Shown here: piece by piece, positions 6,326 to 37,009 of the stretch
Layout of the letters: the number at the start of each line of letters is the position of its first letter
Position numbering within the stretch: position 1 is the stretch's first letter
Assembly: GCF_018613315.1 (NCBI RefSeq)
Contig: NZ_JAGGQL010000017.1
Span: forward strand, 1-37,152
Length of the DNA stretch: 37,152 bases
Source: Bacillus sp. ISL-37
GTDB lineage: Bacteria; Bacillota; Bacilli; Bacillales; Cytobacillaceae
Direction of reading: 5' to 3'
Notes under the pieces: model-generated
The model's database searches: none
Seen by the model: the letters and a program-made list of their open reading frames with translations, nothing else
What the model was told of the DNA's origin: nothing
Translations under genes and position numbers: made by a program

Positions 6326-6458
6326 GCTCTTTTCTTAAACTGATCAGCATTTACATACTATTTACACCTGCTCGATTTGGACGCATCTTCGAAAAGAGCC
6401 CACTAAGAATGCTGATATCTATATATGACCGAAAAGGAACAACCAATGCGAAACACCC
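6326..6458 (-). mobile_element. MITE-like element, subfamily B, short copy
   Basis: A 133-bp non-coding element. Its ends read inward as GCTCTTTTCTTAAAC and GGGTGTTTCGCATTGGTTGT, matching the ends of the other five copies. A perfect 9-bp direct repeat TTTTATAAT flanks it (6317-6325 and 6459-6467), evidence of transposition. The internal words TTCGAAAAGAGCC and CTAAGAATGC match the reverse complement of the copies at 9341 and 34292. It sits in the U-tract of the yabA terminator. No open frame or transposase is seen. Confidence 0.82.
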
Positions 6459-6521
6459 TTTTATAATTAGAAATTTACAGGGTCATAACCTTTGAACATA
6501 TGTGTATGGAGGAAATATCTA

Positions 6522-7265
6522 ATGGTTAACTTACGGGAAGATGAACGATTGGATTATTTATTAGCAGAGGATTTAAGGATCATCCAGAGCCCGAATGTAT
6601 TTTCATTTTCGCTGGATGCTGTCCTGCTTGCGAGGTTTGTCTGGGTGCCGATCCAAAAAGGCAGGATTGTCGACCTTTGCAGCGGCAATGGTGTGATTCC
6701 ATTATTTTTAAGCGCGAGGACAAAGGGAAGTATTACGGGTGTGGAAATTCAGGAGCGGCTGTACGATATGGCTGTCCGCAGTATTGATTATAATAATCTT
6801 GAAGATCGATTACATATGATTCATGGTGATCTAAAGGATGCGCCCAAAGAGCTTGGCTACGAGAAGTATGATGTCGTAACATGCAATCCTCCTTATTTTC
6901 CTACACCTTCGAAGGAAGAAATTAATCTGAATGAACATTTGGCCATTGCGCGCCACGAGATACTCTGCACACTTGAGGATGCGATTAAATCATCGAGCCA
7001 GCTTGTAAAGCAGGGTGGGAAGGTTGCCTTTGTCCACCGTCCAGGCAGGTTGATCGATATCATCGAGATCATGAGAAAATACCGGCTTGAGCCTAAGCGA
7101 ATCCAGTTTGTATATCCAAAGGCCGGGAAGGAAGCGAATACGCTTTTGGTAGAGGCGATTAAGGATGGAAGCCCTGATCTTAAAATTCTTGAGCCATTGA
7201 CGGTGTATGATGAAAATAATGAGTATACTCCAGTTATTAAAGAGATGTTATATGGAAGCAAATAA
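6522..7265 (+). CDS. trmN6: tRNA1(Val) A37 N6-methyltransferase (YabB)
   Basis: A class I SAM-dependent methyltransferase of 247 residues, the same length as B. subtilis YabB. It shows the SAM-binding motif I DLCSGNG (51-57), the acidic motif II GVEIQ, and the N6-adenine catalytic motif NPPY (122-125), which marks an exocyclic amino methylase. The specific tRNA target is inferred from TrmN6 of E. coli. Start ATG 6522 follows GGAGG (6508-6512); the longer frame from 6492 has no ribosome-binding site. The next gene is rsmI; yazA, a GIY-YIG protein found between them in B. subtilis, is missing. Confidence 0.9.
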
Positions 7266-7288
7266 GCGCATAGAAACGGGTGATATAC

Positions 7289-8170
7289 ATGCAACAACAG
7301 AAAAGCTTTGAACGGGAGCATGAAAAAGGGATTCTTTATCTTGTGCCAACTCCTATTGGGAACCTTGAGGACATGACATTCAGGGCGATCAGGATCATGA
7401 AGGAGGCCGATTTGATTGCGGCGGAGGATACGAGGAACACGAAAAAGCTATGTAATTATTTTGAAATTGAAACGCCAGTGACCAGCTATCATGAACATAA
7501 CAAGGAAAGCAGCGGACATAAATTGATTGAAAAGATCAAGGAGGGAGCAAAAGTCGCGCTTGTCAGCGATGCCGGAATGCCGACCATCTCTGATCCAGGT
7601 ACAGAACTGGTGGCCGAAGCAATCGCTGAGGGACTGACTGTCGTACCGCTTCCAGGGGCGAATGCTGCCTTGACAGCTTTGATTGCTTCTGGCATACTTC
7701 CTCAACCTTTCTATTATTATGGATTCCTCCAGAGAGGAAAAAAGGATAAGAAGAAGGAACTTGAGCTGCTGGTGAAGCAAACTGCAACGATTGTCCTTTA
7801 TGAATCTCCCCACCGTTTGAAGGAAACGCTATCGGTGATGCTTGAAGGTCTCGGTGACCGCAAAATCGTCCTTTGCCGTGAACTGACGAAGAAATATGAG
7901 GAGTTCCTAAGGGGAACGATTTCTGAAGCATTGGCATGGGCAGAGGCAGAAGAAGTCCGAGGGGAATTTGTATTAATCATTGAAGGAGCTTCACCGGATT
8001 CCATTTTCGAAGAAGAGAACCATTGGTGGGAAAATTTAAGCCTGGATGAGCATGTCGAACATTATATTTCCAATGAACAAATGAACTCTAAGGAAGCAAT
8101 CAAGCAAACAGCCAAAGATAGAGGTATGCAAAAGCGAGAGGTATACCAGGCGTATCATATTAAAGAATAG
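7289..8170 (+). CDS. rsmI: 16S rRNA (cytidine-1402-2'-O)-methyltransferase RsmI
   Basis: Methylates the 2'-O of C1402 in the decoding centre of 16S rRNA, using SAM. The 293-residue protein has the tetrapyrrole-methylase fold: VPTPIGNLEDMT (19-30), AAEDTRNT (44-51), the SAM-contacting LVSDAGMPTISDPG (91-104) and PLPGANAALTA. The C-terminal helical region fits the RsmI family. The open frame begins at GTG 7280, but that codon lies in the Shine-Dalgarno GGGTGAT (7277-7283), so ATG 7289 is used. It follows trmN6 by 23 bases. Convergent abrB shares a hairpin region downstream. Confidence 0.96.
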   Translation: MQQQKSFEREHEKGILYLVPTPIGNLEDMTFRAIRIMKEADLIAAEDTRNTKKLCNYFEIETPVTSYHEHNKESSGHKLIEKIKEGAKVALVSDAGMPTISDPGTELVAEAIAEGLTVVPLPGANAALTALIASGILPQPFYYYGFLQRGKKDKKKELELLVKQTATIVLYESPHRLKETLSVMLEGLGDRKIVLCRELTKKYEEFLRGTISEALAWAEAEEVRGEFVLIIEGASPDSIFEEENHWWENLSLDEHVEHYISNEQMNSKEAIKQTAKDRGMQKREVYQAYHIKE

Positions 8171-8187
8171 TGCAGAAACAGCACATA

Positions 8188-8218
8188 TAAAAAAGGCCGT
8201 GGAATTTTCCACGGCCTT
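8188..8218 (-). terminator. Terminator of abrB (hairpin shared with rsmI 3' side)
   Basis: A perfect 10-bp stem AAGGCCGTGG / CCACGGCCTT (8193-8202, 8209-8218) has a run of As on its left. Read on the minus strand this is a strong terminator with a U-tract. On the plus strand it has no proper U-tract, so rsmI termination there is less certain. Confidence 0.9.
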
Positions 8219-8229
8219 GAGTATTAGAT

Positions 8230-8517
8230 TTATGCTTTTACAGGTTCGAAGTTTCCCTGGATTTCTTGAAGAAGCTGTTCAGCACCTTCACGGCTAAGGA
8301 TCAGCTTGCCGCCTGCCAATGTGATGTTGTTGTCAGAAACTTCACCAGTGATGTGGCAAGTCATGTTTGGCTTGTACTTCTTAAGGATGATGCGATCATC
8401 ATCAACATAAATTTCCAAAGCATCCTTTTCTGCGATGCCAAGAGTCCTTCTAAGTTCGATTGGAATTACCACACGGCCAAGCTCATCAACTTTACGTACG
8501 ATACCAGTAGATTTCAT
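8230..8517 (-). CDS. abrB: Transition state regulator AbrB
   Basis: A global DNA-binding repressor of post-exponential genes (sporulation, biofilm, antimicrobials). The 95-residue product has the N-terminal swapped-hairpin AbrB domain, MKSTGIVRKVDELGRVVIP, with the conserved R and the GI-E-K-DALEIYVDDDRI stretch, and a C-terminal multimerisation region with the single conserved Cys (C54). The minus-strand ATG is at 8517-8515, behind GAGAGGAGATAG. A sigma-A promoter and tandem Spo0A boxes lie in front of it, so Spo0A-P is expected to repress it as in B. subtilis. SpoVT at 30392 shares its N-terminal domain. Confidence 0.97.
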   Translation of the reverse strand: MKSTGIVRKVDELGRVVIPIELRRTLGIAEKDALEIYVDDDRIILKKYKPNMTCHITGEVSDNNITLAGGKLILSREGAEQLLQEIQGNFEPVKA

Positions 8518-8553
8518 AGTAAACTATCTCCTCTCATTTTCCCTTATATTAAG

Positions 8554-8570
8554 TTCGTCATTTTTCGACA
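8554..8570 (-). promoter_or_regulatory. Tandem Spo0A boxes in the abrB leader
   Basis: TTCGTCA (8554-8560) and TTCGACA (8564-8570), that is TGTCGAA and TGACGAA on the abrB strand, are 10 bp apart. They lie about +13 to +29 from the expected abrB start, the same arrangement as the repressor site of B. subtilis abrB. Confidence 0.85.
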
Positions 8571-8589
8571 TTTTTCTCTTATTGGTTTT

Positions 8590-8618
8590 ATAATACCAGC
8601 GATTCCAATAACCGTCAA
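8590..8618 (-). promoter_or_regulatory. Sigma-A promoter of abrB
   Basis: On the minus strand: -35 TTGACG (8618-8613), 17-bp spacer ending TGG, and -10 TATTAT (8595-8590), so an extended -10 is also present. Confidence 0.85.
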
Positions 8619-8781
8619 TTATTTTATTTTTCTTCTATTAACATATTTTAACACAACGAGAAAACCTTTTCATATCAAGGGTTATGAGTGAAAATAGCAA
8701 GAGGGTTCAAGGAATGGTGCGGTTTTCCTTAGTAGAGGATTTACAAAAATTATTATTGGGAGAATAGTAAATGGAGCACGA

Positions 8782-8830
8782 TTCGACAAAATTCTACAAA
8801 TTGATTCGACAAAATGTCACAAATTCGACA
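8782..8830. promoter_or_regulatory. Cluster of Spo0A boxes between abrB and metS
   Basis: TTCGACA occurs perfectly at 8782, 8805 and 8824, with a one-mismatch TTCTACA at 8792 and a weaker TGTCACA at 8815. The five words belong to ten-base units (ATTCGACAAA and variants) about 10, 13, 10 and 9 bp apart, on one face of the helix. The cluster is about 160 bp upstream of the abrB promoter, so it may serve another transcript; see findings. Confidence 0.7.
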
Positions 8831-8941
8831 AACTCTTGATGGCATGTACTTTATTTTGTACACAGGTATATTCTCTTAATGGATTTGGTTATGATTTTAT
8901 TATGTGATGATCCATCTTTTACTCTTTAAAAATCGGTTATT

Positions 8942-8975
8942 AAGCTCCTGCCAAAAAATAAGGCGGGGCTTTTTT
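8942..8975 (+). terminator. Orphan terminator between abrB and metS
   Basis: AGCTCCTGCC (8943-8952) pairs with GGCGGGGCT (8962-8970), nine pairs with one bulge, followed by TTTTTT. No gene ends just upstream, so it implies a short plus-strand RNA or a remnant. Confidence 0.72.
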
Positions 8976-8980
8976 GATAA

Positions 8981-9163
8981 GGCTCTTTTCTCAAACTTTG
9001 TTGCTATTTGACTAAAAAATAGGATTTAACGACCTATTTTTCTTCGTAAAGTTACTCTTTTGTGAGAAAAGAGCGTGCAAACTTAATACCGACCGGCAAA
9101 ATGTCCTTATATTACGTTAAAATCGGCTTTAGGATTTTAACAACAATCTTTACGAAAACAGCC
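8981..9163 (+). mobile_element. MITE-like element, subfamily A
   Basis: A 183-bp non-coding element with imperfect terminal inverted repeats: left GGCTCTTTTCTCAAACTTTG, right (inward) GGCTGTTTTCGTAAAGATTG. It contains an internal inverted copy of the end (GAGAAAAGAGC, about 9064-9074) and a perfect 9-bp hairpin GTTAAAATC / GATTTTAAC (9116-9124, 9133-9141). Flanks TTTGATAA and TTTGTTAA match 7 of 8, consistent with an 8-bp target duplication. It lies directly after the orphan terminator. The copy at 36827 has the same length. Confidence 0.8.
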
Positions 9164-9340
9164 TTTGTTAAAGTTATATAAAGGCATAGTCCACATTAAA
9201 TTCTCTACTGACAAAATTCGTAAACTATATAGGGAGAATGTCCGTAGTGGAAGATTTTTTTTATAAATAATTATGATTTTCCTAATTGAGTAAAATGAGA
9301 TTGTCGAAACCATTAATAATGGGCCTTTGTTTTACATTAA

Positions 9341-9512
9341 GCTGTTTTCGCACTAAGTGTTGCTTTTCGAACACATACAGTTATCCGCATTCTTAGAGGT
9401 TTCGGGCTCTTTTCGATGATGCTTCCGGATCAAATTTGCGTCAATCATCGTAAAAACCCAGAAGCCGGTTTTTACTTTGGGTGTAAAAGCAACAAAGTTT
9501 ACGAAAAGAACG
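9341..9512 (+). mobile_element. MITE-like element, subfamily B
   Basis: A 172-bp non-coding element with a perfect 8-bp target duplication TACATTAA (9333-9340, 9513-9520). Ends read inward GCTGTTTTCGCACTAAG and CGTTCTTTTCGTAAACTTTG. The interior (CGAACACATACAG, ATTCTTAGAGGTT, CCCAGAAGCCGGTTTTTACT) is shared with the copy at 34292. It occupies the region just upstream of the metS promoter. Confidence 0.85.
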
Positions 9513-9546
9513 TACATTAAAGTGTTATGAATCCTAGGGCGTTAGC

Positions 9547-9555
9547 TGGTATAAT
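9547..9555 (+). promoter_or_regulatory. Extended -10 promoter of metS
   Basis: TGGTATAAT (9547-9555) is a perfect extended -10; the -35 is poor (TTATGA at 9525, spacer 19). No T-box or S-box is recognisable upstream of metS. Confidence 0.6.
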
Positions 9556-9586
9556 AACTACTATTAGAATGAACTAGCAGTTTTAG

Positions 9587-11554
<1,968 letters not shown>

Positions 11555-11564
11555 ATTCAAAATG

Positions 11565-11606
11565 AAAACCTGGAAATGTTTCATGTGTAACATTTTCAGG
11601 TTTTTT
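11565..11606 (+). terminator. Terminator after metS
   Basis: Long stem: AAAACCTG and AAATGTT (11565-11580) pair with AACATTT and CAGGTTTT (11589-11604) with one bulge region; T tract to 11606. Confidence 0.9.
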
Positions 11607-11672
11607 GTGTTAAAAAAGCAATTTTTCTTAAAGAGTGATTTATGATAGTAAGAGAGTTAGATAGCAAGCACT

Positions 11673-11693
11673 CCCGACGATTGTCGGGTTTTT
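11673..11693 (+). terminator. Orphan terminator between metS and tatD
   Basis: Compact 6-bp GC-rich stem CCCGAC / GTCGGG with loop GATT and TTTTT (11689-11693). It lies about 65 bases past the metS terminator with no gene in between; perhaps a back-up terminator or the end of a short RNA. Confidence 0.75.
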
Positions 11694-11789
11694 ATGAAAA
11701 CAGTTGCAAAAATTTGACCTTTACAATGAAAAAAAGTTATGATATCGACACATCTTTATCACAATAATAAGGACATCGCAGTAATTCTA

Positions 11790-11818
11790 TTCAACCTTTT
11801 GTCAGGTATGGTTAGAAT
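11790..11818 (+). promoter_or_regulatory. Candidate promoter of tatD
   Basis: -35 TTCAAC (11790-11795), 17-bp spacer, -10 TAGAAT (11813-11818), about 36 bases before the tatD start. A second candidate, TTGACC (11714) with TATGAT (11738) at 18 bp, lies upstream. Confidence 0.5.
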
Positions 11819-11853
11819 GAAACTGCAGGGCAATGCTGCAAAGGAGTTTTGAC

Positions 11854-12621
11854 ATGCTTTTTGATACACACGTGCACTTAAACGCAGAACAATTCAATGA
11901 GGATCTCCAGGAGGTCATTGACCGCGCAATTGCTGAAGGTGTTACGAATATGGTGGTTGTCGGGTTCGATGAAATAACGATTAAAAAAGCACTAGAGCTC
12001 GCCGAAAGCTATGACTTTCTTTATGCGAGTGTAGGGTGGCATCCAGTCGATGCAATCGATATGACCCAGGATCATCTGGATTGGCTGAAAGAATTGGCAG
12101 GCAATCCGAAGGTCGTGGCACTTGGGGAAATGGGTCTTGATTATTATTGGGACAAGTCACCGAAGGAAATCCAGAAAGAGGTCTTCCGCAAACAAATCAG
12201 ACTGGCAAAAGAAGTGCAACTTCCTATTATCATACATAATCGTGATGCAACAGCAGACATAGTAGAGATTTTAAAGGAAGAGAATGCCGGGGAAGTGGGC
12301 GGAATCATGCACTGTTTCAGCGGCAGCGTGGAAACCGCTCTTGAATGCATTGAAATGAATTTCTTAATTTCGCTTGGCGGGCCTGTTACCTTTAAAAATG
12401 CAAAAAAACCGAAGGAAGTGGCGGTGGAAATCCCATTAGACCGTCTATTGGTCGAAACAGACTGCCCATACCTGACTCCGCATCCATATCGCGGAAAAAG
12501 AAATGAACCAGCCTATGTAAAATTGGTAGCCGAACAAATTGCAGAACTGAAAGGGTTAACTCTTGAGGAAGTGGCAGAAGAAACAGCCAAAAATGCAAAA
12601 AAATTATTCGGCATAAAGTGA
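11854..12621 (+). CDS. tatD: TatD family metal-dependent DNase (YabD)
   Basis: TatD-type hydrolase of the amidohydrolase superfamily, a 3'-to-5' DNase in characterised members. The product is 255 residues, as in B. subtilis. Metal ligands visible along the chain: THVHL (H6, H8), GEMGLDYYWD (catalytic Glu), IIIHNRDA, IMHCFSGS and the aspartate in VETDCPYLTPHPYRGKRNEP (written without interruption here only to residue 20). Start ATG 11854 follows AAAGGAG (11841-11847); the longer frame from 11833 lacks a Shine-Dalgarno. The cell role is probably DNA processing or repair. Confidence 0.94.
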   Translation: MLFDTHVHLNAEQFNEDLQEVIDRAIAEGVTNMVVVGFDEITIKKALELAESYDFLYASVGWHPVDAIDMTQDHLDWLKELAGNPKVVALGEMGLDYYWDKSPKEIQKEVFRKQIRLAKEVQLPIIIHNRDATADIVEILKEENAGEVGGIMHCFSGSVETALECIEMNFLISLGGPVTFKNAKKPKEVAVEIPLDRLLVETDCPYLTPHPYRGKRNEPAYVKLVAEQIAELKGLTLEEVAEETAKNAKKLFGIK

Positions 12622-12787
12622 TAAGGAATGTTGTCGATTTTTCAACAAGGTTGTCCAAACTTTTTATGTTTCTAAGAAGTTCTACATGTCTCACTTGCGA
12701 CATAGGATAACCGTGTCGATAACTCTTGCTTTTCTTTTTATGGAGCATCTTGCATAATAGGGACTACGCTTGGCAAGGGTGTCTGGG

Positions 12788-12817
12788 TTGACAAGTCGGC
12801 AACAATATCTTTATAAT
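12788..12817 (+). promoter_or_regulatory. Sigma-A promoter of yabE
   Basis: Consensus -35 TTGACA (12788-12793) and -10 TATAAT (12812-12817) with an 18-bp spacer, just ahead of the ribosome-binding site. Confidence 0.85.
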
Positions 12818-12846
12818 CACTCCGAGAAGAGGAGGCGTTTTTCATC

Positions 12847-14043
12847 GTGATTAATAGTATGAAAAACCTGTTTTCCAAGACTTTGAGTAAGAAGAAACTA
12901 GTGATTTTTTCTGCTAGTTTCCTAGTTTTTGCTGCTGCTCTTGGGTTCTTCATGTACGAAGGGTCCAAAAATACAGTCGCATTGACGCTGGATGGCGAAG
13001 AAAGAGTCATTAAAACACACGCAAATACTATCCAAGATATATTTAATGATCTCAATATTTCATTGCGCTCAGAGGATTATTTATCGCTGGCGGCAAACAC
13101 GGAGGTTAAAAACAACCTATCGATCGTGTGGAAGCCGGCAAGACAGGTAGAGCTAATACAAGATCAGGAAAAGAAAACGTATTGGACAGCAGCCGATACT
13201 GTAGAGGAATTCCTGAAAGAACAGAATATCGCTATAAATGAACACGACAAGTTAAACCAAAACCCAGACGCTAAACTAAAGCAAGATATGAAGATTGCCA
13301 TTCAAAGAGCTTTCCCGCTCAAGGTTGTAGTAGGCGGAAAAGAGCAAGATGTTTGGTCGACTTCGACTACGGTCGCTGACTTTTTATCACAGCAAGGAAT
13401 CACACTGAACGAAATGGACCGTGTTGAGCCTGCATTAAAGCAGAACGTCACTAAAGATGCCGTGATTAATGTCATTCGAGTTGAAAAAGTCACCGATGTA
13501 GTGGAAGAACCAATTAGCTATGCAGTCATTACGAAAAATGACAGCAAACTGGAAAAAGGGAAACAGAAAGTCGTAACAGAAGGCCAGGAAGGCTTGCTTT
13601 CAAAGGAATATGAAGTAATCCTTGAAAATGGCAAAGAAGTATCAAGAAAACTGGTCAGTGAAAAGAAATTGAAAGAAAAACAGGATAAAGTCGTGGCAAT
13701 GGGAACGAAGGTCATCGTAGCTCAAGTATCACGTGGCTCAAGTGAACCTGCAGGGAAGGAATTTTATGTTTCTTCCACAGCGTATACCGCTAACTGTAAC
13801 GGCTGCTCCGGCTACACGGCAACTGGTATCAATCTGAGGGCAAACCCTAACATTAAGGTCATTGCAGTAGATCCAAGAGTTATTCCTTTAGGAACAAAAG
13901 TATATGTTGAAGGATATGGCTATGCAATAGCTGCCGATAAAGGATCAGCTATCAAAGGCAATAAGATCGATGTCTTTTTCGCGTCAAAGTCGGATGCATA
14001 CCGCTGGGGCCGAAAGAAAGTCAAAATCAAAATCCTAAATTAA
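12847..14043 (+). CDS. yabE: YabE, cell-wall protein with G5 and 3D domains (Rpf/Sps family)
   Basis: A 398-residue cell-envelope protein. The N-terminus has a basic stretch and one membrane segment (about 18-37). Three DUF348 repeats follow (about 43-83, 101-142, 158-197), then a G5 domain (about 212-288), and a C-terminal 3D domain (306-398) with the three aspartates in AVDPRVIP, AADKGSA and NKIDVFF; that domain resembles the lytic transglycosylase fold. It probably cleaves or remodels peptidoglycan. GTG 12847 is 11 bases from GGAGG (12831-12835). B. subtilis YabE (437 aa) is repressed by an ECF-sigma-driven antisense RNA, and a matching antisense promoter is present downstream here. Confidence 0.93.
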   Translation: MINSMKNLFSKTLSKKKLVIFSASFLVFAAALGFFMYEGSKNTVALTLDGEERVIKTHANTIQDIFNDLNISLRSEDYLSLAANTEVKNNLSIVWKPARQVELIQDQEKKTYWTAADTVEEFLKEQNIAINEHDKLNQNPDAKLKQDMKIAIQRAFPLKVVVGGKEQDVWSTSTTVADFLSQQGITLNEMDRVEPALKQNVTKDAVINVIRVEKVTDVVEEPISYAVITKNDSKLEKGKQKVVTEGQEGLLSKEYEVILENGKEVSRKLVSEKKLKEKQDKVVAMGTKVIVAQVSRGSSEPAGKEFYVSSTAYTANCNGCSGYTATGINLRANPNIKVIAVDPRVIPLGTKVYVEGYGYAIAADKGSAIKGNKIDVFFASKSDAYRWGRKKVKIKILN

Positions 14044-14051
14044 TTTCATGG

Positions 14052-14080: not shown

Positions 14081-14118
14081 GTTTTTTCATTTTACGTTTA
14101 AGGTATAATAAGAAAAGT

Positions 14119-17852: not shown

Positions 17853-18016
17853 GCATGGATAGAAACCGAGGGCAACTTCCATGTATCCTTCTGCAATTCT
17901 AATTCTTTGTGAAATTACTGTATTCGCGATTACGCAAATGATAAAATAAAGGAATGTTTCTTGCAGAGGAGTCTTGCTTATTTTACTCAGAGAGTATGGT
18001 TTTAACTTAGAAAATT

Positions 18017-18066
18017 GTCCAGCTCCATCGACTCGAGGGGCTGACCAAGGCGCTTGCGCTTTTCTT
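18017..18066 (+). repeat. GC-rich dispersed repeat, copy B
   Basis: Starts GTCCAGCTCCA, continues CGACTCGAGGGG, and ends with the 20-mer CTGACCAAGGCGCTTGCGCT (18041-18060) found identically at 23801 and 31060. It lies directly before a candidate extended -10 (TGGTAAAAT, 18076-18084) for ispE; its TTGCGC (18054) could act as a poor -35 at 19 bp. Confidence 0.75.
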
Positions 18067-20338: not shown

Positions 20339-20581
20339 TCACAAGAAGGGGTAACATGTTCCCGTTGAAGAAGAAAACAAGGTCTGACGGTCACAAGCAG
20401 GTCCGACATGTGCCCGTGAAGGGAGAAAAAGTGGTCTGACGGTCACAAGAAGGCCTAGCATGTGCCCGTAGAAGAAGGAAAAAGTGGTCTGACGGTCACA
20501 AGAAGGTCCAATATGCACCCATTTAGGGAGAAAATCGGTTATAAGAAGTCGCATTATGTCCTCATCATGGGAGAAAGGCGG
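20339..20581. repeat. Tandem array, ~52-bp period (array 2)
   Basis: Units start TCACAAG at 20339, 20391, 20443 and 20496, with TTATAAG at 20539; lengths are 52, 52, 53, 43 and about 43. Shared words are ACATGTGCCCGT, GGGAGAAAAAGT and GGTCTGACGG. The last two units lack the GTGGTCTGAC segment. There is no open reading frame. This array fills much of the gap between ridA and spoVG. Confidence 0.88.
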
Positions 20582-23764: not shown

Positions 23765-23792
23765 ACTCCTGTTTCTGATTGCTTTTATATAC

Positions 23793-23825
23793 GAGCTGGG
23801 CTGACCAAGGCGCTTGCGCTTTTTT
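23793..23825 (+). repeat. GC-rich dispersed repeat, copy C (partial)
   Basis: Contains GAGCTGGG and the shared 20-mer CTGACCAAGGCGCTTGCGCT (23801-23820) followed by T5. The left part seen in copies A and D is missing. Confidence 0.72.
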
Positions 23826-23851: not shown

Positions 23852-24381
23852 GCTGTCAAGAAAAGCAGGTTATTGTGACAGGTTTCAAGGATACGGGGTC
23901 AAAGCTGTCAAGAAAAGCAGGTTATTGTGAAAGGTTTCATGAAAACAGGGCCAAAGCTGTCAAGAAAAGCAGGTTATTGTGACAGGTTTCAAGGATACGG
24001 GGTCAAAGCCGTCAAGAAAAGCAGGTTATTGTGACAGGTTTCATGAAAACAGGGCCAAAGCTGTCAAGAAAAGCAGGTTATTGTGACAGGTTTCAAGGAT
24101 ACGGGGTCAAAGCTGTCAAGAAAAGCTTGTTATTGTAACAGGTTTCAAGGAAACAGGGCCAAAGCTGTCAAGAAAAGCTCGTTATTGTGACAGGTTTCAA
24201 GGAAACAGGGCCAAAGCTGTCAAGAAAAGCTCGTTATTGTGACAGGTTTCAAGGAAATAGGGTCAAAGCTGTCAAGAAAAGCTAGTTATTGTGACAGGTT
24301 TCAAGGAGATAGAGTCAAATCTGTCAAGAAAAGCCAATTATTGTGACAGTTTCAAGGGAACGGGGTCAAAGTTGTCAAGAA
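23852..24381. repeat. Tandem array, 52-bp unit, ten copies (array 1)
   Basis: Units begin at 23852, 23904, 23956, 24008, 24060, 24112, 24164, 24216, 24268 and 24320, with a stub at 24371. Nine units are exactly 52 bp and one is 51. Each contains the inverted repeat CTGTCA ... TGACAG (17 bases apart). Units 1-4 alternate between two types (AAGGATACGGGGTC and ATGAAAACAGGGCC endings), a 104-bp higher-order repeat; units 6-10 drift toward ctc. There is no open frame across it. The remaining gap sequence (24382-24466) shows nothing. Confidence 0.95.
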
Positions 24382-26314: not shown

Positions 26315-26465
26315 GGTTGTTTTCGTAAAGATTGTTGTTAAAATCCTAAAGCCGATTTTAACGTGAAAAAATCTATTTTGTAGTTCGGTATTAAGTGTGC
26401 AAGCTCTTTTCTCTTAATAATTTTTAATTTTGTAAACAATAGCAACAAAGTTTGAGAAAAGAGCC
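26315..26465 (-). mobile_element. MITE-like element, subfamily A, internal deletion
   Basis: A 151-bp reverse-oriented copy of the 8981 and 36827 elements. Ends read inward GGTTGTTTTCGTAAAGATTG and GGCTCTTTTCTCAAACTTTG. It keeps the hairpin GTTAAAATC / GATTTTAAC and the CGGTATTAAG word, but lacks about 30 bp near the centre. Flanks TTATTAAA and TTTTAAAA match 6 of 8. It occupies the mfd upstream region, ending 48 bases before the start codon. Confidence 0.78.
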
Positions 26466-30232: not shown

Positions 30233-30391
30233 AGTTCAAATCTTGGTAAGGTTGATTAATAAAGGCAGTATCATTATCGAAAGCTCATTTCGTAAACTTT
30301 CGACAAATGATTATTTCCAGAAAGTAAAAGTTAACGCGAAAACAACCTTATCTAAAAAAATAATCATCAGATGAAAGTGAGGCAACGTTGG

Positions 30392-30928
30392 ATGAAAGCA
30401 ACTGGTATTGTTCGTCGAATCGATGATTTAGGTCGTGTCGTAATTCCTAAAGAAATTAGAAGAACACTTCGTATTCGTGAAGGAGATCCACTCGAAATCT
30501 TTGTGGACCGTGATGGTGAAGTCATTTTAAAGAAGTATTCGCCAATAAGTGAGCTAGGCGATTTTGCGAAGGAGTATGCAGAAGCGCTGTATGATAGCTT
30601 AGGCAACCCGGTATTGATTTGCGATAGAGATACTTATATCGCATTGGCAGGAGGTTCCAAGAAGGACTACTTGAATAAAAACATCAGTGAACTTGTTGAA
30701 AAGACGATGGAAGACCGTAGTTCGTCCCTTGTGAACCAGCAGTCTAACATCGCTCTCGTTGAGGGAAATGAAGAACCTGTATCTGCTTATACAATCGGGC
30801 CAATCATTGCAAACGGAGATCCAATCGGGGCAGTAATTATCTTCTCTAAAGAAGGATCATTGGGTGACGTGGAACAAAAAGCTGTTGAAACAGCTGCAGG
30901 CTTCCTGGCAAGACAGATGGAGCAATAA
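30392..30928 (+). CDS. spoVT: Stage V sporulation protein T
   Basis: AbrB-family transcription factor that tunes sigma-G genes in the forespore. The 178 residues comprise the N-terminal AbrB DNA-binding domain, MKATGIVRRIDDLGRVVIPK with EIFVDRDGEVILKKY (1-50), a short linker, and a C-terminal GAF-like domain (about 56-178). ATG 30392 is 10 bases after GTGAGG (30376-30381); the upstream ATG 30371 has no ribosome-binding site. A sigma-G promoter lies upstream. Confidence 0.97.
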   Translation: MKATGIVRRIDDLGRVVIPKEIRRTLRIREGDPLEIFVDRDGEVILKKYSPISELGDFAKEYAEALYDSLGNPVLICDRDTYIALAGGSKKDYLNKNISELVEKTMEDRSSSLVNQQSNIALVEGNEEPVSAYTIGPIIANGDPIGAVIIFSKEGSLGDVEQKAVETAAGFLARQMEQ

Positions 30929-30969
30929 TCAAGATTCCTGATTTTTACCGATTTATAATCTTACCTAAA

Positions 30970-30996
30970 AGGGCAGCTGACAAAGCTGCCTCTTTT
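30970..30996 (+). terminator. Terminator after spoVT
   Basis: GGCAGC / GCTGCC (30972-30977, 30985-30990), extended by AAAAG / CTTTT with a bulge. Confidence 0.85.
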
Positions 30997-31034
30997 CGTG
31001 TTTTAGAACTTTAAGCACCTTCCGGGAAGAATAG

Positions 31035-31084
31035 TGTCCAACTCCAGCGCTTGTCAGGTCTGACCAAGGCGCTTGCGCTTTTCT
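31035..31084 (+). repeat. GC-rich dispersed repeat, copy A (most complete)
   Basis: GTCCAACTCCAGCGCTTGTC then the 20-mer CTGACCAAGGCGCTTGCGCT (31060-31079) and TTTTC. The halves CAGCGCTTGTCAG (31045-31057) and CTGACCAAGGCGCTTG (31060-31075) form a long hairpin with two bulges, so the copy may act as a terminator-like structure. Confidence 0.75.
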
Positions 31085-31089
31085 ATGTT

Positions 31090-31157
31090 ACATCAATCTA
31101 ACAAATTGATGTTACCTGTCACGCTTGGGGCAGACGCTTTTACCCTTGTGATATAAT
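31090..31157 (+). promoter_or_regulatory. yabM promoter region with palindrome
   Basis: Perfect 8-bp inverted repeat ACATCAAT / ATTGATGT (31090-31097, 31105-31112; 7-base gap), about 36 bp before an extended -10 TGATATAAT (31149-31157). No good -35 is seen. The palindrome could be an operator; its regulator is unknown. Confidence 0.5.
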
Positions 31158-31192
31158 ACGGTTGAAAATGAAAAATTGGAAGGAGATGGGCG

Positions 31193-32797
31193 ATGAAGCC
31201 CGTTGCAGATTCAAAGGAACTGATGAAGGGAGCCATGATCCTGACTATGGCAGCCCTCGTTACAAAAATTTTAAGCGCAGTTTACCGTGTCCCGTTTCAA
31301 AATATTGTCGGGGACATTGGTTTTTATATTTATCAGCAGGTTTATCCCTTTTTTGGGATTGTCATGGTTTTATCTACATATGGTTTTCCAGTTGTGATAT
31401 CCAAGCTTTATACGGAGCAGCAGGCTGCAGGGAATACTGGCAGGGCGGATAGGCTTTTGGCTATTTCACTTGTTTTCCTTAGCATGGTTGGAGTACTGTT
31501 CTTTTTGTTTTTCTATTTTGGTTCTGGATGGATTGCCGGAAAAATCGGTGACCCTGAACTAAAGCCATTATTCATGGTCGTCTCCGTGCCATTCCTGATC
31601 TTCCCGTTCACCTCTGTGTTCAGGGGATACTTCCAGGGAAAGGGAAACATGGTTCCGACTGCGATATCCCAGGTTTCTGAACAATTCATCCGTGTTGCGA
31701 CCATTCTGATTTTGTCAGCGGTCCTGGTACAGCAAGGCTTCTCTCTTTATATCACTGGTGCCGGGGCTGTGTTCGGGTCAATAACCGGCGGAGTCATTTC
31801 CGTTTTCATTCTCGGCTTTTTCTATCAGAAAAATGGAGGAGCTAATCCCTTAACGCGTTTTCATATTAGGGATCTATTTAAGGACGCAGCCTGGGTCGTA
31901 AAAGCACTGATCATTCAGGGATTTGCGATCAGCATTAGTGGGATGCTGTTAATATTGCTACAGTTGGCAGATTCATTGAATATGTATGCCTCCTTGCTGG
32001 CAACGGGACTGACGGCAGAGGAAGCAAAATCGGCCAAAGGCATTTTTGACCGAGGGCAGCCGCTCATCCAGCTTGGAACAGTTGTCGCCACCTCGATGTC
32101 ATTAAGCCTTGTACCGGCGATTTCTGGTGACAAATCAAGTAATCGGCGGGAAAAAGTCCTTCCCAAAGTTAGGCTTGCTCTTCAGACAAGCCTGATATTT
32201 GGCGCTGCGGCGGCGGTTGGCTTATACAGCATCATCGTTCCAGCAAATATCATGCTGTTTGAGAATGCAAATGGATCCGATGTTCTTGGACTACTCAGCC
32301 TGATGATTTTATTTGGCTCTGTCATCCTGACGATTATGAGCATTTTACAGGGGCTTGATAAGTCCATTTTTCCGGCTGCGGTCATTCTCGCGGGATTTGT
32401 ATTGAAATACATATTAAATCTATTGCTCATCCCTATTGCCGGAACAATGGGTGCAGCTATTGCCACATTGGCTGCGATGCTGGCTGTCATGTTGATCCTG
32501 ATTTATAAACTAAGAAGTGAGCTGGGGCAGCCTGTCCTATCGCTTGTTTTTATAACGAAAATATTGTTTTCCTCGGCAGTGATGGCTGTCGTTTTGCGAT
32601 TATTTTTATTTATAACGGATTTCGGATATGGCTATATTGAACCAGACAGGCTCGGAGCTGTATTTCAGGCATTAAGCTCAGTGGCCGTGGGAGCACTAGT
32701 TTACTTTTTTATTTTGATAAAAACCAGGGCTTTGACTGAAGAAGAACTAGTAACTTTGCCATTTGGCAGCAGAATTGTCCAGTTGTTCTCTAAATAG
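31193..32797 (+). CDS. yabM: MOP-superfamily polysaccharide/lipid flippase YabM (SpoVB-like)
   Basis: An integral membrane protein of 534 residues, similar in size and pattern to SpoVB, of the MATE/PST branch of the MOP superfamily, which flips lipid-linked sugars across the membrane. The N-terminus KGAMILTMAALVTKILSAVY and GFYIYQQVYPFF is typical; about 12-14 hydrophobic segments run to the C-terminus. The substrate is not known for YabM. ATG 31193 follows AAGGAGATGG (31179-31188). yabN begins 25 bases downstream in the same operon. Confidence 0.92.
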   Translation: MKPVADSKELMKGAMILTMAALVTKILSAVYRVPFQNIVGDIGFYIYQQVYPFFGIVMVLSTYGFPVVISKLYTEQQAAGNTGRADRLLAISLVFLSMVGVLFFLFFYFGSGWIAGKIGDPELKPLFMVVSVPFLIFPFTSVFRGYFQGKGNMVPTAISQVSEQFIRVATILILSAVLVQQGFSLYITGAGAVFGSITGGVISVFILGFFYQKNGGANPLTRFHIRDLFKDAAWVVKALIIQGFAISISGMLLILLQLADSLNMYASLLATGLTAEEAKSAKGIFDRGQPLIQLGTVVATSMSLSLVPAISGDKSSNRREKVLPKVRLALQTSLIFGAAAAVGLYSIIVPANIMLFENANGSDVLGLLSLMILFGSVILTIMSILQGLDKSIFPAAVILAGFVLKYILNLLLIPIAGTMGAAIATLAAMLAVMLILIYKLRSELGQPVLSLVFITKILFSSAVMAVVLRLFLFITDFGYGYIEPDRLGAVFQALSSVAVGALVYFFILIKTRALTEEELVTLPFGSRIVQLFSK

Positions 32798-32821
32798 AGC
32801 CTTGAAGGAGGAAGTGTGGAT

Positions 32822-34285
32822 ATGACAAATAAAATATTGATCATCGGACTGGGAGCGGGTGACCTTGACCAGCTGCCGCTTGGTGTATATAAAAAGCTGA
32901 AGCAGGAGAAAAACCTGTATTTGCGGACAAAGGAGCATTCGGTAGTCGCCGAGCTCGAGAAGGAAGGATTGCAGTTTCAATCCTTCGATGACGTATATGA
33001 AAAACATGACCAGTTTTCGGATGTTTACGAAGAGATAACAGAGATTTTGCTTGCAGAAGCAGAAAAAGCGCATGTAACCTATGCGGTTCCTGGACATCCT
33101 TTGATTGCCGAGCGAACCGTGCAGCTCCTGCTCGAACGAGGGCCAAAGCGGGATACAGAAATTGAAATTGGCGGCGGTCAGAGCTTCCTGGATGCCATGT
33201 TCCAGTCACTGGCGATTGATCCGATCGAAGGTTTTCAACTGCTTGACGGCACCGCACTGTCAAAAGAAGATTTACTTCTAAAGAGCCACACAATTATCGG
33301 ACAGGTCTATGACGCGTTCGTTGCATCTGACGTCAAGCTGACGCTTATGGAAAAATTGCCAGATGATTATGAGGTATACATCGTGACTGCTGCCGGAAGC
33401 AGTGAGGAAGTCATTAAAAAAGTTCCATTATATGAACTCGACAGGGAGATGGAGCTAAGTAATTTGACATCTGTTTATGTTCCACCTGTTGAAAATGAGC
33501 AAATTTTATACAAGGATTTTCTGAAGCTGCGTGGAATTATATCAGAACTGCGCGGTCCGAATGGCTGTCCTTGGGATAAGAAGCAGACTCATCAAACATT
33601 AAAAAAGTATTTGATTGAAGAATCGTATGAATTACTAGAGGCGATTGATAACGATGATATCGATCATATGATTGAAGAGTTGGGGGATGTGCTGCTTCAA
33701 GTCATGCTGCATGCGCAGATTGGTGAGGATGAGGGCTATTTTACCATCGATGATGTCATTGAAGGCCTGTCTGCAAAAATGGTCCGCAGGCATCCTCATG
33801 TGTTCGGGGACAAAACAGCTGAAAATGAAGCTGAGGTCTTGAAAAACTGGCAGGAGATCAAGGAGCAGGAAAAGGGCGGTGCCGTAAAATCGATGCTGGA
33901 GGGAGCCGGCAAAGGGCTTCCGAATCTGCTTAAGGCATATGAGTTGCAAAAGGAAGCCGCTAAAGTAGGGTTCGACTGGAAGACTGTGGCCCCGATCCTT
34001 GATAAGGTAAAGGAAGAAATTGAAGAGCTTTCCGAAGAAATCACTACAAATGGCATTCAGGAAGATATCCAGTTGGAGTACGGGGACCTATTGTTCGCGC
34101 TCGTCAACTTCGCAAGGCATTATGACATCAATCCTGAAGAGGCACTAAACAAGGCCAACCGGAAGTTCATGCGCCGCTTTGCCTATATCGAACAAAAAGC
34201 AGCAGAGAATGGCCGAAGTGTCGATGATTACACATTGGATGAATTGGATGCTTTCTGGGAGGAAGCGAAAACACAAGGTTTATAG
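32822..34285 (+). CDS. yabN: Tetrapyrrole methylase-like / MazG NTP pyrophosphohydrolase fusion (YabN)
   Basis: A 487-residue two-domain protein. Residues 1 to about 220 are a tetrapyrrole methylase (SAM-binding) fold with IIGLGAGDLDQLPLG (7-21) and YAVPGHPLIAERTV. From about 235, GPNGCPWDKKQTHQTLKKY starts MazG domain 1, with the metal motifs EESYELLEAI and EELGDVLLQVMLH; domain 2 contains EEIEELSEEI and EYGDLLFALVNFARH. It probably hydrolyses non-canonical NTPs. GTG 32816 (4 bases from AAGGAGG) is an equally possible start; ATG 32822 is chosen because it is ATG and gives MTNKILIIGLG. Confidence 0.93.
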   Translation: MTNKILIIGLGAGDLDQLPLGVYKKLKQEKNLYLRTKEHSVVAELEKEGLQFQSFDDVYEKHDQFSDVYEEITEILLAEAEKAHVTYAVPGHPLIAERTVQLLLERGPKRDTEIEIGGGQSFLDAMFQSLAIDPIEGFQLLDGTALSKEDLLLKSHTIIGQVYDAFVASDVKLTLMEKLPDDYEVYIVTAAGSSEEVIKKVPLYELDREMELSNLTSVYVPPVENEQILYKDFLKLRGIISELRGPNGCPWDKKQTHQTLKKYLIEESYELLEAIDNDDIDHMIEELGDVLLQVMLHAQIGEDEGYFTIDDVIEGLSAKMVRRHPHVFGDKTAENEAEVLKNWQEIKEQEKGGAVKSMLEGAGKGLPNLLKAYELQKEAAKVGFDWKTVAPILDKVKEEIEELSEEITTNGIQEDIQLEYGDLLFALVNFARHYDINPEEALNKANRKFMRRFAYIEQKAAENGRSVDDYTLDELDAFWEEAKTQGL

Positions 34286-34291
34286 GTAAAA

Positions 34292-34462
34292 GGCTGTTTT
34301 CGCATTGATTGTTGTTTTTCGAACACATACAGTAACGTATTCTTAGAGGTTGCGGTTCTTTTCGAAGATGCTACCTAAATGAAGATGCGTCAGTATTCGC
34401 AAAAACCCAGAAGCCGGTTTTTACTTTGAGTCTGGAAGCAACAAATTTTACGAAAAGAGCGC
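34292..34462 (+). mobile_element. MITE-like element, subfamily B, inside the yabN-rqcP operon
   Basis: A 171-bp copy, close to the element at 9341. Ends read inward GGCTGTTTTCGCATTGATTG and GCGCTCTTTTCGTAAAATTT. Flanks AGGTAAAA and AGGTAAAT (34284-34291, 34463-34470) match 7 of 8. It starts 6 bases after the yabN stop and ends 41 bases before rqcP. Confidence 0.82.
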
Positions 34463-34502
34463 AGGTAAATCAAACCAATAAGGAAAAAGGGGTTTAAATA
34501 CA

Positions 34503-34775
34503 ATGAGGCTGGATAAATTCTTAAAGGTATCAAGATTGATCAAAAGAAGAACATTGGCGAAGGAAGTATCCGACCAGGGGAGAATTTCAGTCAATGGTGT
34601 GCCTGCGAAAGCAAGTACGAATGTAAAAGCAGGTGATGAACTGGCGATCCGGTTCGGACAAAAGGTTGTTTCCGTGAAAATCGAAAGGATCCAGGAAACT
34701 TCACGCAAGGATGAGGCTGCAGAAATGTACACAATCCTTGGGGAAGAGCGAATTCCTGGAGATGATGATGAGTAA
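34503..34775 (+). CDS. rqcP: RNA-binding protein RqcP (S4 domain)
   Basis: A ribosome-quality-control factor: acts with RqcH to add C-terminal alanine tails to stalled peptides on the 50S subunit. The 90-residue protein is almost entirely an S4/Hsp15-type RNA-binding domain: MRLDKFLKVSRLIKRRTLAK, DQGRISVNGVPAKAS and VKAGDELAIRFG. ATG 34503 is behind AAAGGGG (34487-34493). In B. subtilis it lies directly after yabN; here an inserted element separates them, but order and direction are kept. Confidence 0.95.
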   Translation: MRLDKFLKVSRLIKRRTLAKEVSDQGRISVNGVPAKASTNVKAGDELAIRFGQKVVSVKIERIQETSRKDEAAEMYTILGEERIPGDDDE

Positions 34776-34778
34776 GCT

Positions 34779-34798
34779 AAGCTTCCTGTGAAGGCTTG
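34779..34798 (+). terminator. Weak hairpin after rqcP
   Basis: AAGCTTC / GAAGGCTT with a one-base bulge and no good U-tract; a possible weak terminator. No convincing sigma-E promoter for yabP could be read in 34799-34850. Confidence 0.3.
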
Positions 34799-34862
34799 TT
34801 CTATTCTCCCTTATCCAATCATAAACATGTACAAAAGTGCATTATGATTGTGAGGGGTAATG

Positions 34863-35165
34863 ATGAGCCAATATTATGAAACGAACCAGACAAAAAGTAA
34901 TTTGCCAGACCACGATTTAGTGATGAGAGGCAGACGGACACTTGAGATTACGGGAGTAAAGCAAGTTGAAAGCTTCGACAATGAAGAGTTTTTACTAGAG
35001 ACTGTCATGGGATTCCTTGCGATCAAGGGCCAGAACCTCCAGATGAAAAACCTGGATGTCGACAAAGGCATTGTATCGATCAAGGGGAAAATCTTCGACC
35101 TGGTCTATCTTGATGACCAGCATGGGGAGAAAGCTAAAGGCTTCTTTAGCAAGTTATTCCGATGA
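34863..35165 (+). CDS. yabP: Sporulation protein YabP
   Basis: A 100-residue protein (as in B. subtilis) of the YabP/YqfC family, needed for spore cortex/coat formation in the mother cell. It contains the family features HDLVMRGRRTLEITGVKQVE, SFDNEEFLLET and GFLAIKGQNLQMKNLDVDKG (20-mer). Of two adjacent ATGs (34860, 34863), the second is 5 bases after GAGGGG (34852-34857) and is preferred. Its end overlaps yabQ by 4 bases (ATGA), so the two are coupled. Confidence 0.94.
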   Translation: MSQYYETNQTKSNLPDHDLVMRGRRTLEITGVKQVESFDNEEFLLETVMGFLAIKGQNLQMKNLDVDKGIVSIKGKIFDLVYLDDQHGEKAKGFFSKLFR

Positions 35166-35797
35166 CATTGTCGACCCAATTTTTGACGATGCTCGCCATG
35201 ATTGGGATGGGCAGCTTATTCGGAGCTTCACTTGATACCCATAATCGTTTTCTGAAAAGGTCAAAACGAAAGTCGTGGATTGTCTTTATCAATGACATTT
35301 TGTTTTGGGTGTTCCAGGGTCTGTCGATATTTTATGTCTTATTTTCAGTGAATATGGGAGAATTGCGTTTTTATATCTTCCTGGCATTGTTATGCGGCTT
35401 TGCAGCGTACCAGAGTCTTTTTAAAAATATGTACCTTAAGTTGCTTGAGCGGGCCATTGCCATCACCATCAACGTGTATGTGTTTATCGTGAAGGCGATC
35501 AGGATGCTTGTGATTAGGCCGCTCCAGTTTCTGGCTGCCACCGCCTTATCACTATTGCTTTTGACGGGAAGAGGCCTTTACGCTCTAGGAAAATGGCTTC
35601 TTGCCGTTTTACTATGGCTGTTAAACACTTTCATTTGGAAACCAGTTAAGATTATATTCTTACTTTTTTGGAAACTTTTGCCGAAAACAGTTAAAAAAAG
35701 CGTCGAGAAGTTATATAATAAATTGGCAGGATTTCTAAATATAGTAAAGAATTATTCTACTAAGCCGATAAAATGGATAAAGAACTTTAAAAAATAA
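35162..35797 (+). CDS. yabQ: Spore cortex membrane protein YabQ
   Basis: A 211-residue mother-cell membrane protein needed for cortex formation in B. subtilis. Hydrophobic segments are at about 5-22 (FLTMLAMIGMGSLFGASL), 40-62, 70-86, 96-112 and 120-160; a highly basic C-terminal tail (KTVKKSVEKL ... KPIKWIKNFKK) lies probably in the cytoplasm. The start ATG overlaps the yabP stop. It is in the operon yabP-yabQ-divIC. Confidence 0.93.
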   Translation: MTLSTQFLTMLAMIGMGSLFGASLDTHNRFLKRSKRKSWIVFINDILFWVFQGLSIFYVLFSVNMGELRFYIFLALLCGFAAYQSLFKNMYLKLLERAIAITINVYVFIVKAIRMLVIRPLQFLAATALSLLLLTGRGLYALGKWLLAVLLWLLNTFIWKPVKIIFLLFWKLLPKTVKKSVEKLYNKLAGFLNIVKNYSTKPIKWIKNFKK

Positions 35798-35819
35798 ATT
35801 AAAAGGAGGACTGCGGGGA

Positions 35820-36218
35820 ATGGGTGTCATCAGGAAAAAGAACATAGCCAGGATTGAAAATCAATATGTACAGCAGCGTGAAAAAGCAGGTATTGCAGAA
35901 TCCAGAAAGCGAAAACTGCTTTTCAGGCGCCTCGCAGTCTTTGCTCTCTTCGCATCGGTCATCTCTTATTTGATGATCTCAACGTACATTTCACAGTCTT
36001 CAGCCCTCGAAAAGAAGCAGGTGGAAAAGGAACAGCTTGAACAAAAATTAGCAAGCCTTCAAAAAAAGCAGGAGATTCTGGATGAGGAAATCGTCAAATT
36101 AAACGATGATGAATACATAGCAAAGCTTGCCCGCAAGGAATATTTTCTGTCCGAAAAGAATGAAATCATCTTCAACCTTCCCAAAGAGAAAAAGGACTCC
36201 CAAGATTCGCCTTATTGA
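35820..36218 (+). CDS. divIC: Cell division protein DivIC (FtsB-like)
   Basis: A bitopic membrane protein of the division septum that works with FtsL and DivIB. The 132 residues consist of a basic cytoplasmic N-terminus (1-38), one membrane segment LAVFALFASVISYLMIST (39-56), a coiled coil (about 60-100; ALEKKQVEKEQLEQKLASLQ) and a conserved C-terminal LARKEYFLSEKNEIIF. ATG 35820 is 12 bases from AAAGGAGG (35800-35807), a long but acceptable spacing. The yabR promoter overlaps its stop codon. Confidence 0.95.
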   Translation: MGVIRKKNIARIENQYVQQREKAGIAESRKRKLLFRRLAVFALFASVISYLMISTYISQSSALEKKQVEKEQLEQKLASLQKKQEILDEEIVKLNDDEYIAKLARKEYFLSEKNEIIFNLPKEKKDSQDSPY

Positions 36219-36244
36219 CACTCTTTTTTGATATTCTGTATAAT
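36215..36244 (+). promoter_or_regulatory. Sigma-A promoter of yabR
   Basis: TTGACA (36215-36220), 18 bp, TATAAT (36239-36244); a second TATAAT starts at 36244. The -35 overlaps the divIC stop, so yabR can be expressed apart from the operon. Confidence 0.85.
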
Positions 36245-36292
36245 ATAATGTAAGTTTGATTTTTTATATCTTTAAGGAGGCAAAACTTTTTT

Positions 36293-36745
36293 ATGTCAAT
36301 CGAAGTAGGCAGCAAGCTACAGGGAAAGGTAACAGGTATTACAAATTTCGGGGCGTTTGTGGAACTGCCGGGAGGCTCAACTGGACTGGTTCATATCAGT
36401 GAGGTTGCAGACAACTATGTAAAAGACATTAATGACCACCTCAAAGTGGGCGACCAGGTTGAAGTAAAGGTTATCAATGTTGAAAAAGACGGTAAAATCG
36501 GTTTATCTATCAAGAAGGCTGTTGATAGACCAGAACGACCTGCAAGACCAGAAAGATCTGAATCAAGACCTTACTCACAGCGTCCACGCGGCGGCGGCGG
36601 CAGAGGAAACGACAACCGCAATGCCCGTCCGGAAAATTTCGAATCAAAAATGGCGAAATTTTTGAAGGACAGCGAAGACCGCCTGTCCACTCTTAAACGC
36701 GCTACCGAATCTAAGCGCGGCGGAAGAGGAGCTAGAAGAGGGTAA
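36293..36745 (+). CDS. yabR: S1 RNA-binding domain protein YabR
   Basis: A 150-residue protein with an S1 domain at residues 1-75 (VGSKLQGKVTGITNFGAFVE, GSTGLVHISEVADNYV, VGDQVEVKVINVEKDGKIGL) and a C-terminal tail rich in Arg, Pro and Gly (RGGGGRGNDNRNARPENFES, GGRGARRG), suited to RNA binding. It resembles general stress protein 13 family members; the exact role is unknown. ATG 36293 is 12 bases from AAGGAGG (36274-36280). In B. subtilis the next gene region contains spoIIE, outside this window. Confidence 0.93.
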   Translation: MSIEVGSKLQGKVTGITNFGAFVELPGGSTGLVHISEVADNYVKDINDHLKVGDQVEVKVINVEKDGKIGLSIKKAVDRPERPARPERSESRPYSQRPRGGGGRGNDNRNARPENFESKMAKFLKDSEDRLSTLKRATESKRGGRGARRG

Positions 36746-36791
36746 CTTGCTGCTAAGTGAATATATATAATAGCAGGAATCATGCTATACC

Positions 36792-36822
36792 AAGACAAGT
36801 CTTTTAAAGGGCTTGTCTTTTT
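36792..36822 (+). terminator. Terminator after yabR
   Basis: AAGACAAG / CTTGTCTT (36792-36799, 36812-36819) followed by a T run that is part of the next element's target duplication. Confidence 0.88.
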
Positions 36823-36826
36823 GTTT

Positions 36827-37009
36827 GGCTCTTTTCTCAGACTTTGTTGCTATTGACTACAAAATAGGATTAAATGACCTATGTTTCTTCATAAAATTAA
36901 AGATTATTAGGAGAAAAGAGCTTGCACACTTAATACCGAACTACAAAATAGGTTTTTTCACGTTAAAATCGGCTATAGGATTTTAACAACAATCTTTACG
37001 AAAACAGCC
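36827..37009 (+). mobile_element. MITE-like element, subfamily A
   Basis: A 183-bp element, the same length as the copy at 8981 and closely similar throughout. Ends read inward GGCTCTTTTCTCAGACTTTG and GGCTGTTTTCGTAAAGATTG. Perfect 8-bp target duplication TTTTGTTT (36819-36826, 37010-37017), though it is T-rich. It lies in the U-tract of the yabR terminator. Confidence 0.82.

Follow-up and report, generated by a model that had tools for sequence, protein, structure and literature searches.

Insertion sequences (ISs) of the IS1595 family, which was reportedly defined by Siguier, Gagnevin and Chandler in 2009, duplicate 8 bp of target DNA, and group IIC introns are known to land directly behind intrinsic terminators. 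According to an excerpt of one study, IS1595 copies are over-represented between genes that point in the same direction (PMC9208149). Here we describe six short repeats in a stretch of 37,152 nucleotides (nt) from Bacillus sp. ISL-37 (contig NZ_JAGGQL010000017.1, positions 1 to 37,152; hereafter, the window), together with the dispersed family to which they belong. The six elements are very probably miniature inverted-repeat transposable elements (MITEs): non-autonomous relatives of a Bacillales-wide group of IS1595-family ISs that were mobilised in trans and amplified in this genome, after which the transposase was lost. The repeats form a true MITE family whose partner is of the IS1595 type, which is ordinary in kind; the surprising part is their association with intrinsic terminators.

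A preliminary description of the window had reported six copies with shared ends, and all six are present where it placed them, with lengths of 133–183 bp (Table 1). Taking as the target duplication the best 8-bp match, with a 1-bp boundary shift permitted, the flanks agree at 6–8 of 8 positions; the three perfect duplications described earlier were recovered at 6326, 9341 and 36827, and the two that agree at 7/8 at 8981 and 34292. The 8-bp size given earlier is supported; we read the '9-bp' repeat at 6326 as a duplication of 8 bp extended by a base that matches by chance or by an eroded terminal G. Subfamily A comprises the copies at 8981, 26315 and 36827 (about 183 bp, one with an internal deletion of about 33 bp), and subfamily B those at 6326, 9341 and 34292. 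The MITE-like character originally assigned to the repeats was borne out, given that they are short, numerous, flanked by duplications and bounded by shared inverted ends, and have no transposase of their own; as also stated before, there is none among the window's reading frames of at least 70 amino acids. No tRNA is present in the window.

The end motif GGCTSTTTTCGNAAANWTTGTTG (at most three mismatches) occurs at 214 places in the genome (108 + 106) and its reversed control at one (0 + 1), so that the motif is not a product of chance; halving the 214 ends gives an estimate of roughly a hundred family copies. Family A yielded at least 41 genome matches, with scoring limited to 40 of the 133 initial candidates; family B yielded 16, of which many are partial. 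The 39 A copies that were kept are 151–186 bp long, and their mean identity to their own consensus is 92.9%, which we read as a sign that the amplification is neither very recent nor very old. Across 101 genomes, the window's own included, MITE A was matched in 46 at E ≤ 0.001, many weakly, and within the genus in 18 of 21 genomes (own genome counted; weakly in genome G014). Among the matches listed, full-length MITE A at 72–76% identity was found in a few other genera of the same family and in one genome (G098) of another family of the same order. Phage records gave no match to MITE A and viral contigs none to the exact end pattern, and a plasmid search matched three records, among them Paenibacillus polymyxa pSC2.

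Evidence for transposition comes first from the duplications. Among 42 family-A rows, 20 had an 8/8 and 11 a 7/8 duplication, compared with 0.4% and 4.3% when the same flanks were paired anew at random; after three rows were dropped, the counts were 19 and 11 of 39. In relatives, 26 of 30 independent copies have a duplication of 7–8/8. We also compared the window's sites with the syntenic DNA of ten relatives; anchors were missing for G005 and G004 at three sites and for G015, G017 and G008 at 36827, so there is no reading in these cases. At 36827, the interval measures 264 bp in the window and 73 bp in G018, G006 and G019 (shorter by exactly 183 + 8 bp), 74 bp in G012, and 536 bp without end motifs in G003. 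At 26315, it measures 263 bp in the window, 104 bp in five relatives and 103 bp in G006 (the difference being 151 + 8 bp); the site is empty in G018, G006, G003, G017, G019 and G008, G005 and G004 are not covered, and the copy is shared by G012, with the same internal deletion, and by G015, at full length. At 34292, the interval falls from 217 bp in the window to 39 bp in G018 and G006 (171 + 8 bp within a base), and the copy is absent from G012 as well; G015 holds a related, eroded element there, and G003, G017, G019 and G008 hold end-like matches with 3–6 mismatches, so this copy may be older.

The remaining sites vary likewise. The 6326 copy also occurs in G005, and no end motif was found there in the other nine of the ten relatives. 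The aligned place lacks the 8981 copy in G005, G012 and G018 and holds unrelated sequence in G004. At 9341, G005, G018 and G004 carry a single TACATTAA and no element. The same target (window positions 9333–9520) is occupied by a B element in the window and by an A-type element in G012, so it was probably either hit twice or had its interior exchanged through the ends. Because the 8981 and 9341 copies are both missing from G005, a near relative whose metG is 97% identical to that of the window, some insertions appear to be fairly recent. The preliminary description would have been refuted had relatives shown no position or length polymorphism, and it proposed looking for empty sites with a single 8-bp flank; the polymorphism was found between related species, and such empty sites at 9341. 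Taken together, orthologous sites without the element, three of them shorter by the element plus 8 bp to within a base, demonstrate that the family transposes.

In the 184-bp consensus of A, both ends are conserved, and the interior contains an inverted copy of the left end (at about 83–95) and a palindrome near the right end. Subfamily B also has an internal end-like copy, and a palindrome related to that of A at another place in the element. The division into two subfamilies is upheld, and the claim that they share only their ends is not: both hold a related 26-nt palindrome (73–77% alike) and an internal end-like GCTCTTTTC copy. The two palindromes occupy non-collinear positions and so do not establish that the interiors have a common origin; our guess is that the internal copies and palindromes could offer extra binding sites for a transposase. 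Locus L186 (G000:C55 202303–202675) contains two family-A copies in head-to-tail arrangement, which either abut or are separated by about 22 bp, and a similar cluster with three family-A matches occurs at G003:C22 96724–97171. A 223-bp element in G068 (L041 479–701) has similar ends (2–3 mismatches) and a different, GC-rich interior; by eye, it sits directly behind a terminator-like hairpin.

A lead to the autonomous partner was an element of 623 bp on plasmid pSC2: its ends match, and it contains a fragment of a reading frame that we took, by eye, to be IS1595-like and that Pfam did not confirm. PF12762 (DDE_Tnp_IS1595) was matched in 29 of the 101 genomes, the window's own not among them, with 67.9 bits on locus L052 (cut-off 27). 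The MITE ends flank four of the 30 PF12762 loci fetched (L050, L052, L056 and L069); the 8-bp duplications are perfect at L050 (TTCATTTA) and L052 (TTAATTTA) and imperfect at the other two. One good end is present at L051, L065, L068, L070, L072 and L073, and the loci without MITE-type ends include L054, L058–L061, L064 and L066. Some more distant IS1595 genes have other ends (GGCTCTGTTAAA..., for example L215), which suggests that the ends follow the transposase subgroup.

A contig scan with the L052 transposase extended this set: the best 80 of 189 relatives represent 79 distinct named loci, nearly all from Bacillales by title (including Rossellomorea aquimaris TF-12), which together with L050 and L052 made 81 loci for examination. 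Both ends, each with at most 6 mismatches of 23, and a 7–8/8 duplication were found in 49 of these 81 IS1595-type loci; 46 of the 49 have at most 3 mismatches, and 44 have a duplication of 8/8. Since L149 and L151 are one orthologous insertion, the independent IS elements number 48. On the NCBIfam IS1595 model NF033547 (cut-off 75), two transposases scored 213.5 (the probe) and 209 bits. An IS with matching ends, which the preliminary description had recommended seeking, thus exists in the clade, for example at L050 and L052, and it belongs to the IS1595 family. The two kinds of element coexist in G052, which has both the IS with these ends and an open frame of 346 codons (L052) and full-length A-like MITEs (73–76%). 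Extra open frames of 92–142 codons, possible passenger genes, lie beside the transposase at L056, L069 and L052.

MITEs and ISs also share a target motif, roughly TYT-TTWWWWAA-ARA. When aligned on the duplicated 8 bp, the site profiles of 36 MITE A copies and 49 ISs are correlated with r = 0.85 (0.79 with the IS reversed), and the common profile has T-Y-T before the duplication, a passage from T-rich to A-rich across the 8 bp and A-R-A after it. The correlation is in part one of common AT-richness; its specific components are T/A at −3, −1, +8 and +10 and Y/R at −2 and +9.

The window's six insertions divide evenly: three begin at the T-tract of a terminator-like hairpin and three elsewhere. 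More generally, a hairpin with a T-tract lies within 30 nt of 22 of the 39 A copies in the window's genome and 23 of the 49 ISs, compared with a background of 14.6% over 6178 intergenic bp of the window (genes picked from the reading-frame list), and hairpin ends peak within 6 nt on either side of the start of the duplication. A first control, with all noncoding T-tracts, gave 17/39 versus 44/385 for MITEs and 21/49 versus 151/1717 for ISs, a comparison that allowed the sites more chances than the controls. With AT-matched controls that required a T-tract and were tested identically, the enrichment persisted for MITEs (17/39 versus 122/600, p = 0.0013) and ISs (21/49 versus 70/600, p = 2e-7; 20/48 and p = 7e-7 without the duplicate orthologue). 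In both cases noncoding DNA was defined by reading-frame length, not by annotation, and the terminator caller was simple, both of which blur the controls. In relatives, 17 of 30 independent MITE copies are at terminators, as judged against the own-genome control. Both MITEs and full ISs, the latter from many species, are therefore found unusually often at the T-tract of intrinsic terminators. In the window's genome, the left end of MITE A faces the terminator in 15 cases and the right end in 2; in relatives the ratio is 12 to 6, which is not significant alone, and ISs show no strong bias (right-end side 14, left-end side 8).

This association could reflect purifying selection only, with random insertion into AT-rich intergenic T-tracts and survival of the least harmful copies, a reading to which we give not quite an even chance. 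It would fit the observations that every one of the 39 MITE sites and 49 IS sites passes a lenient test for a T-tract and that no hairpin is detectable at about half of the sites; the register would be set by T-tract positions, and old copies would have been filtered. The enrichment over AT-matched T-tract controls and its recurrence in relatives speak against it, although selection could yield the same outcome, and the orientation bias of MITE A (15:2; 12:6 in relatives) is not obviously predicted by plain survival. Alternatively, the IS1595 group and its MITEs may home to terminators: the transposase, either unaided or together with the termination complex, would pick the T-tract that follows the hairpin, and MITE A would favour one orientation; the 8-bp duplication would then regenerate the T-tract, making insertion near-neutral and permitting amplification to about a hundred copies. 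We put this forward tentatively, judging it somewhat more apt to be wrong than right. Target preference and selection at terminators are not separable from these data.

The following course would account for the computed common ends, duplications, empty sites, target motif, hairpin enrichment, transposase absence here and remnants in sister species. An IS1595 transposase acting in trans would recognise the ends of about 23 bp and insert the element into an AT-rich TYT-TTWWWWAA-ARA target, the central 8 bp of which would be duplicated. Suitable targets occur at the T-tract of intrinsic terminators, and as the hairpin still has a T-tract next to it after the duplication, insertion there should be nearly harmless. 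The family would have been amplified to roughly a hundred copies in this genome, and the transposase gene, presumably once present, would afterwards have been lost from the lineage.

Traces of such a gene persist in the genus. A protein search with the L052 transposase found matches in 9 of its 21 genomes, some very weak: G013 and G018 have 74%-identical fragments with a stop codon, and G010 and G020 a C-terminal remnant at 65%. Ends close to the motif lie beside transposase remnants in G018, G010, G020 and G016. Open genes at 41–42% to the L052 transposase occur in G019, and the one examined, L215, has different ends. From the remnants in sister species, we infer that the enzyme either moved through the genus and then decayed or is repeatedly gained and lost.

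Several points weigh against an IS1595 origin followed by loss. No recognisable IS1595 transposase was found in the window's genome, G005 or G012 with PF12762 and L052 protein searches, even though the 8981 and 9341 insertions, missing from G005, must be fairly recent. MITE and IS are seldom homologous over more than about 25–40 bp at the ends, which leaves origin of the MITEs through deletion within any one IS without demonstration. The left end of the IS has ATA at positions 13–15 in 35 of 49 cases, and the commonest MITE A ends have AAACTT and AAAGAT; AAAGAT occurs in 13 of 49 IS right ends, which only suggests that the left end of MITE A is equivalent to the right end of the IS (CTTTGTTG type). 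The absence of a detectable terminator from about half of the insertions counts on the same side.

We consider it improbable that the repeats are instead structured RNA elements or regulators, such as attenuators, kept for their function and not mobile. Two conserved hairpins in the consensus point that way, and in each subfamily one copy has a better fold than most of its shuffled versions (z = −2.6 and −1.8), but the terminal inverted repeats account for much of the fold, and target duplications, empty sites and between-species polymorphism are those of mobile DNA. No Rfam family was found at the repeats up to E = 1; the sole match up to that value lies within a coding region and is to a Yersinia sRNA, with a score well under the gathering threshold. 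As for the ISL3 family, whose ends and 8-bp duplications resemble those of these repeats and from which the preliminary description had tentatively drawn its mobiliser (GGCTCTT ends, 8-bp duplications), we give the idea scarcely any credence and reject ISL3 in that role, since PF01610 (ISL3), present in 13 of 41 genomes, has no match in the window's genome, MITE ends surround the transposase in 0 of the 30 ISL3 loci fetched among relatives (38 matches were listed; several of the loci are cut at a contig edge), and the probe transposase scores 18.9 bits on NCBIfam ISL3 (cut-off 180).

Table 1. Repeat copies and adjoining hairpins in the window, with target-site duplications (TSDs)
Feature	Coordinates	Strand	TSD	Remarks
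MITE subfamily B, degraded, 133 bp	6326..6458	-	TTTATAAT, 8/8	TSD at 6318-6325 / 6460-6467
MITE subfamily A, 183 bp	8981..9163	+	TTTGATAA/TTTGTTAA, 7/8	
MITE subfamily B, 172 bp	9341..9512	+	TACATTAA, 8/8	
MITE subfamily A, ~33-bp internal deletion, 151 bp	26315..26465	-	TTATTAAA/TTTTAAAA, 6/8	
MITE subfamily B, 171 bp	34292..34462	+	AGGTAAAA/AGGTAAAT, 7/8	
MITE subfamily A, 183 bp	36827..37009	+	TTTTGTTT, 8/8	
Terminator-like hairpin AGCCTTCC..GGAAGGCT, then ATTTTTAT	6292..6314	+		-13.8 kcal/mol; directly upstream of 6326 insertion
Terminator-like hairpin, then TTTTGATA	8942..8971	+		-14.0 kcal/mol; directly upstream of 8981 insertion
Terminator-like hairpin, then TTTGTTTT	36792..36819	+		-13.5 kcal/mol; directly upstream of 36827 insertion

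The window contains other repeats. Tandem arrays at 20339–20534, 23852–24381 (about ten copies) and 37033–37145 all have a 52-bp period with differing unit sequences, and a dispersed repeat ending in GGGCTGACCAAGGCGCTTGCGCTTTTCT lies at 18009–18065, 23769–23825 and 31028–31084; a stretch similar to this repeat fills the 8981 region in G004.

In the literature searched, including the parts available of PMC6807381, PMC9208149 and PMC10969869, we found no description of IS1595-derived MITEs in Bacillales or of terminator targeting by IS1595, which argues weakly for their absence. The main text of the MITE review PMC10969869, searched by term, gave no mention of IS1595, Bacillus or Bacillaceae. 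With the present analysis, a high-copy repeat of the genus gains an identified kind of autonomous partner and a corrected family, and the repeats can be masked or explained in annotation and in intergenic comparisons among Bacillales. The data further suggest that a DDE transposon may exploit terminators as landing sites and, through its target duplication, keep them intact. Group IIC introns differ in being retroelements, whereas the elements described here are of the DDE-transposase type and have target duplications. The ends, the AT-rich 8-bp duplication and the target motif equal those of the IS1595 elements found here; unlike these, the repeats have no transposase, are shorter than 200 bp and occur in a genome in which no IS1595 gene was recognised. 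In being short, non-coding, intergenic and present in high copy number, with inverted ends and target duplications, they resemble prokaryotic MITEs as portrayed in the sections consulted of a review (PMC10969869).

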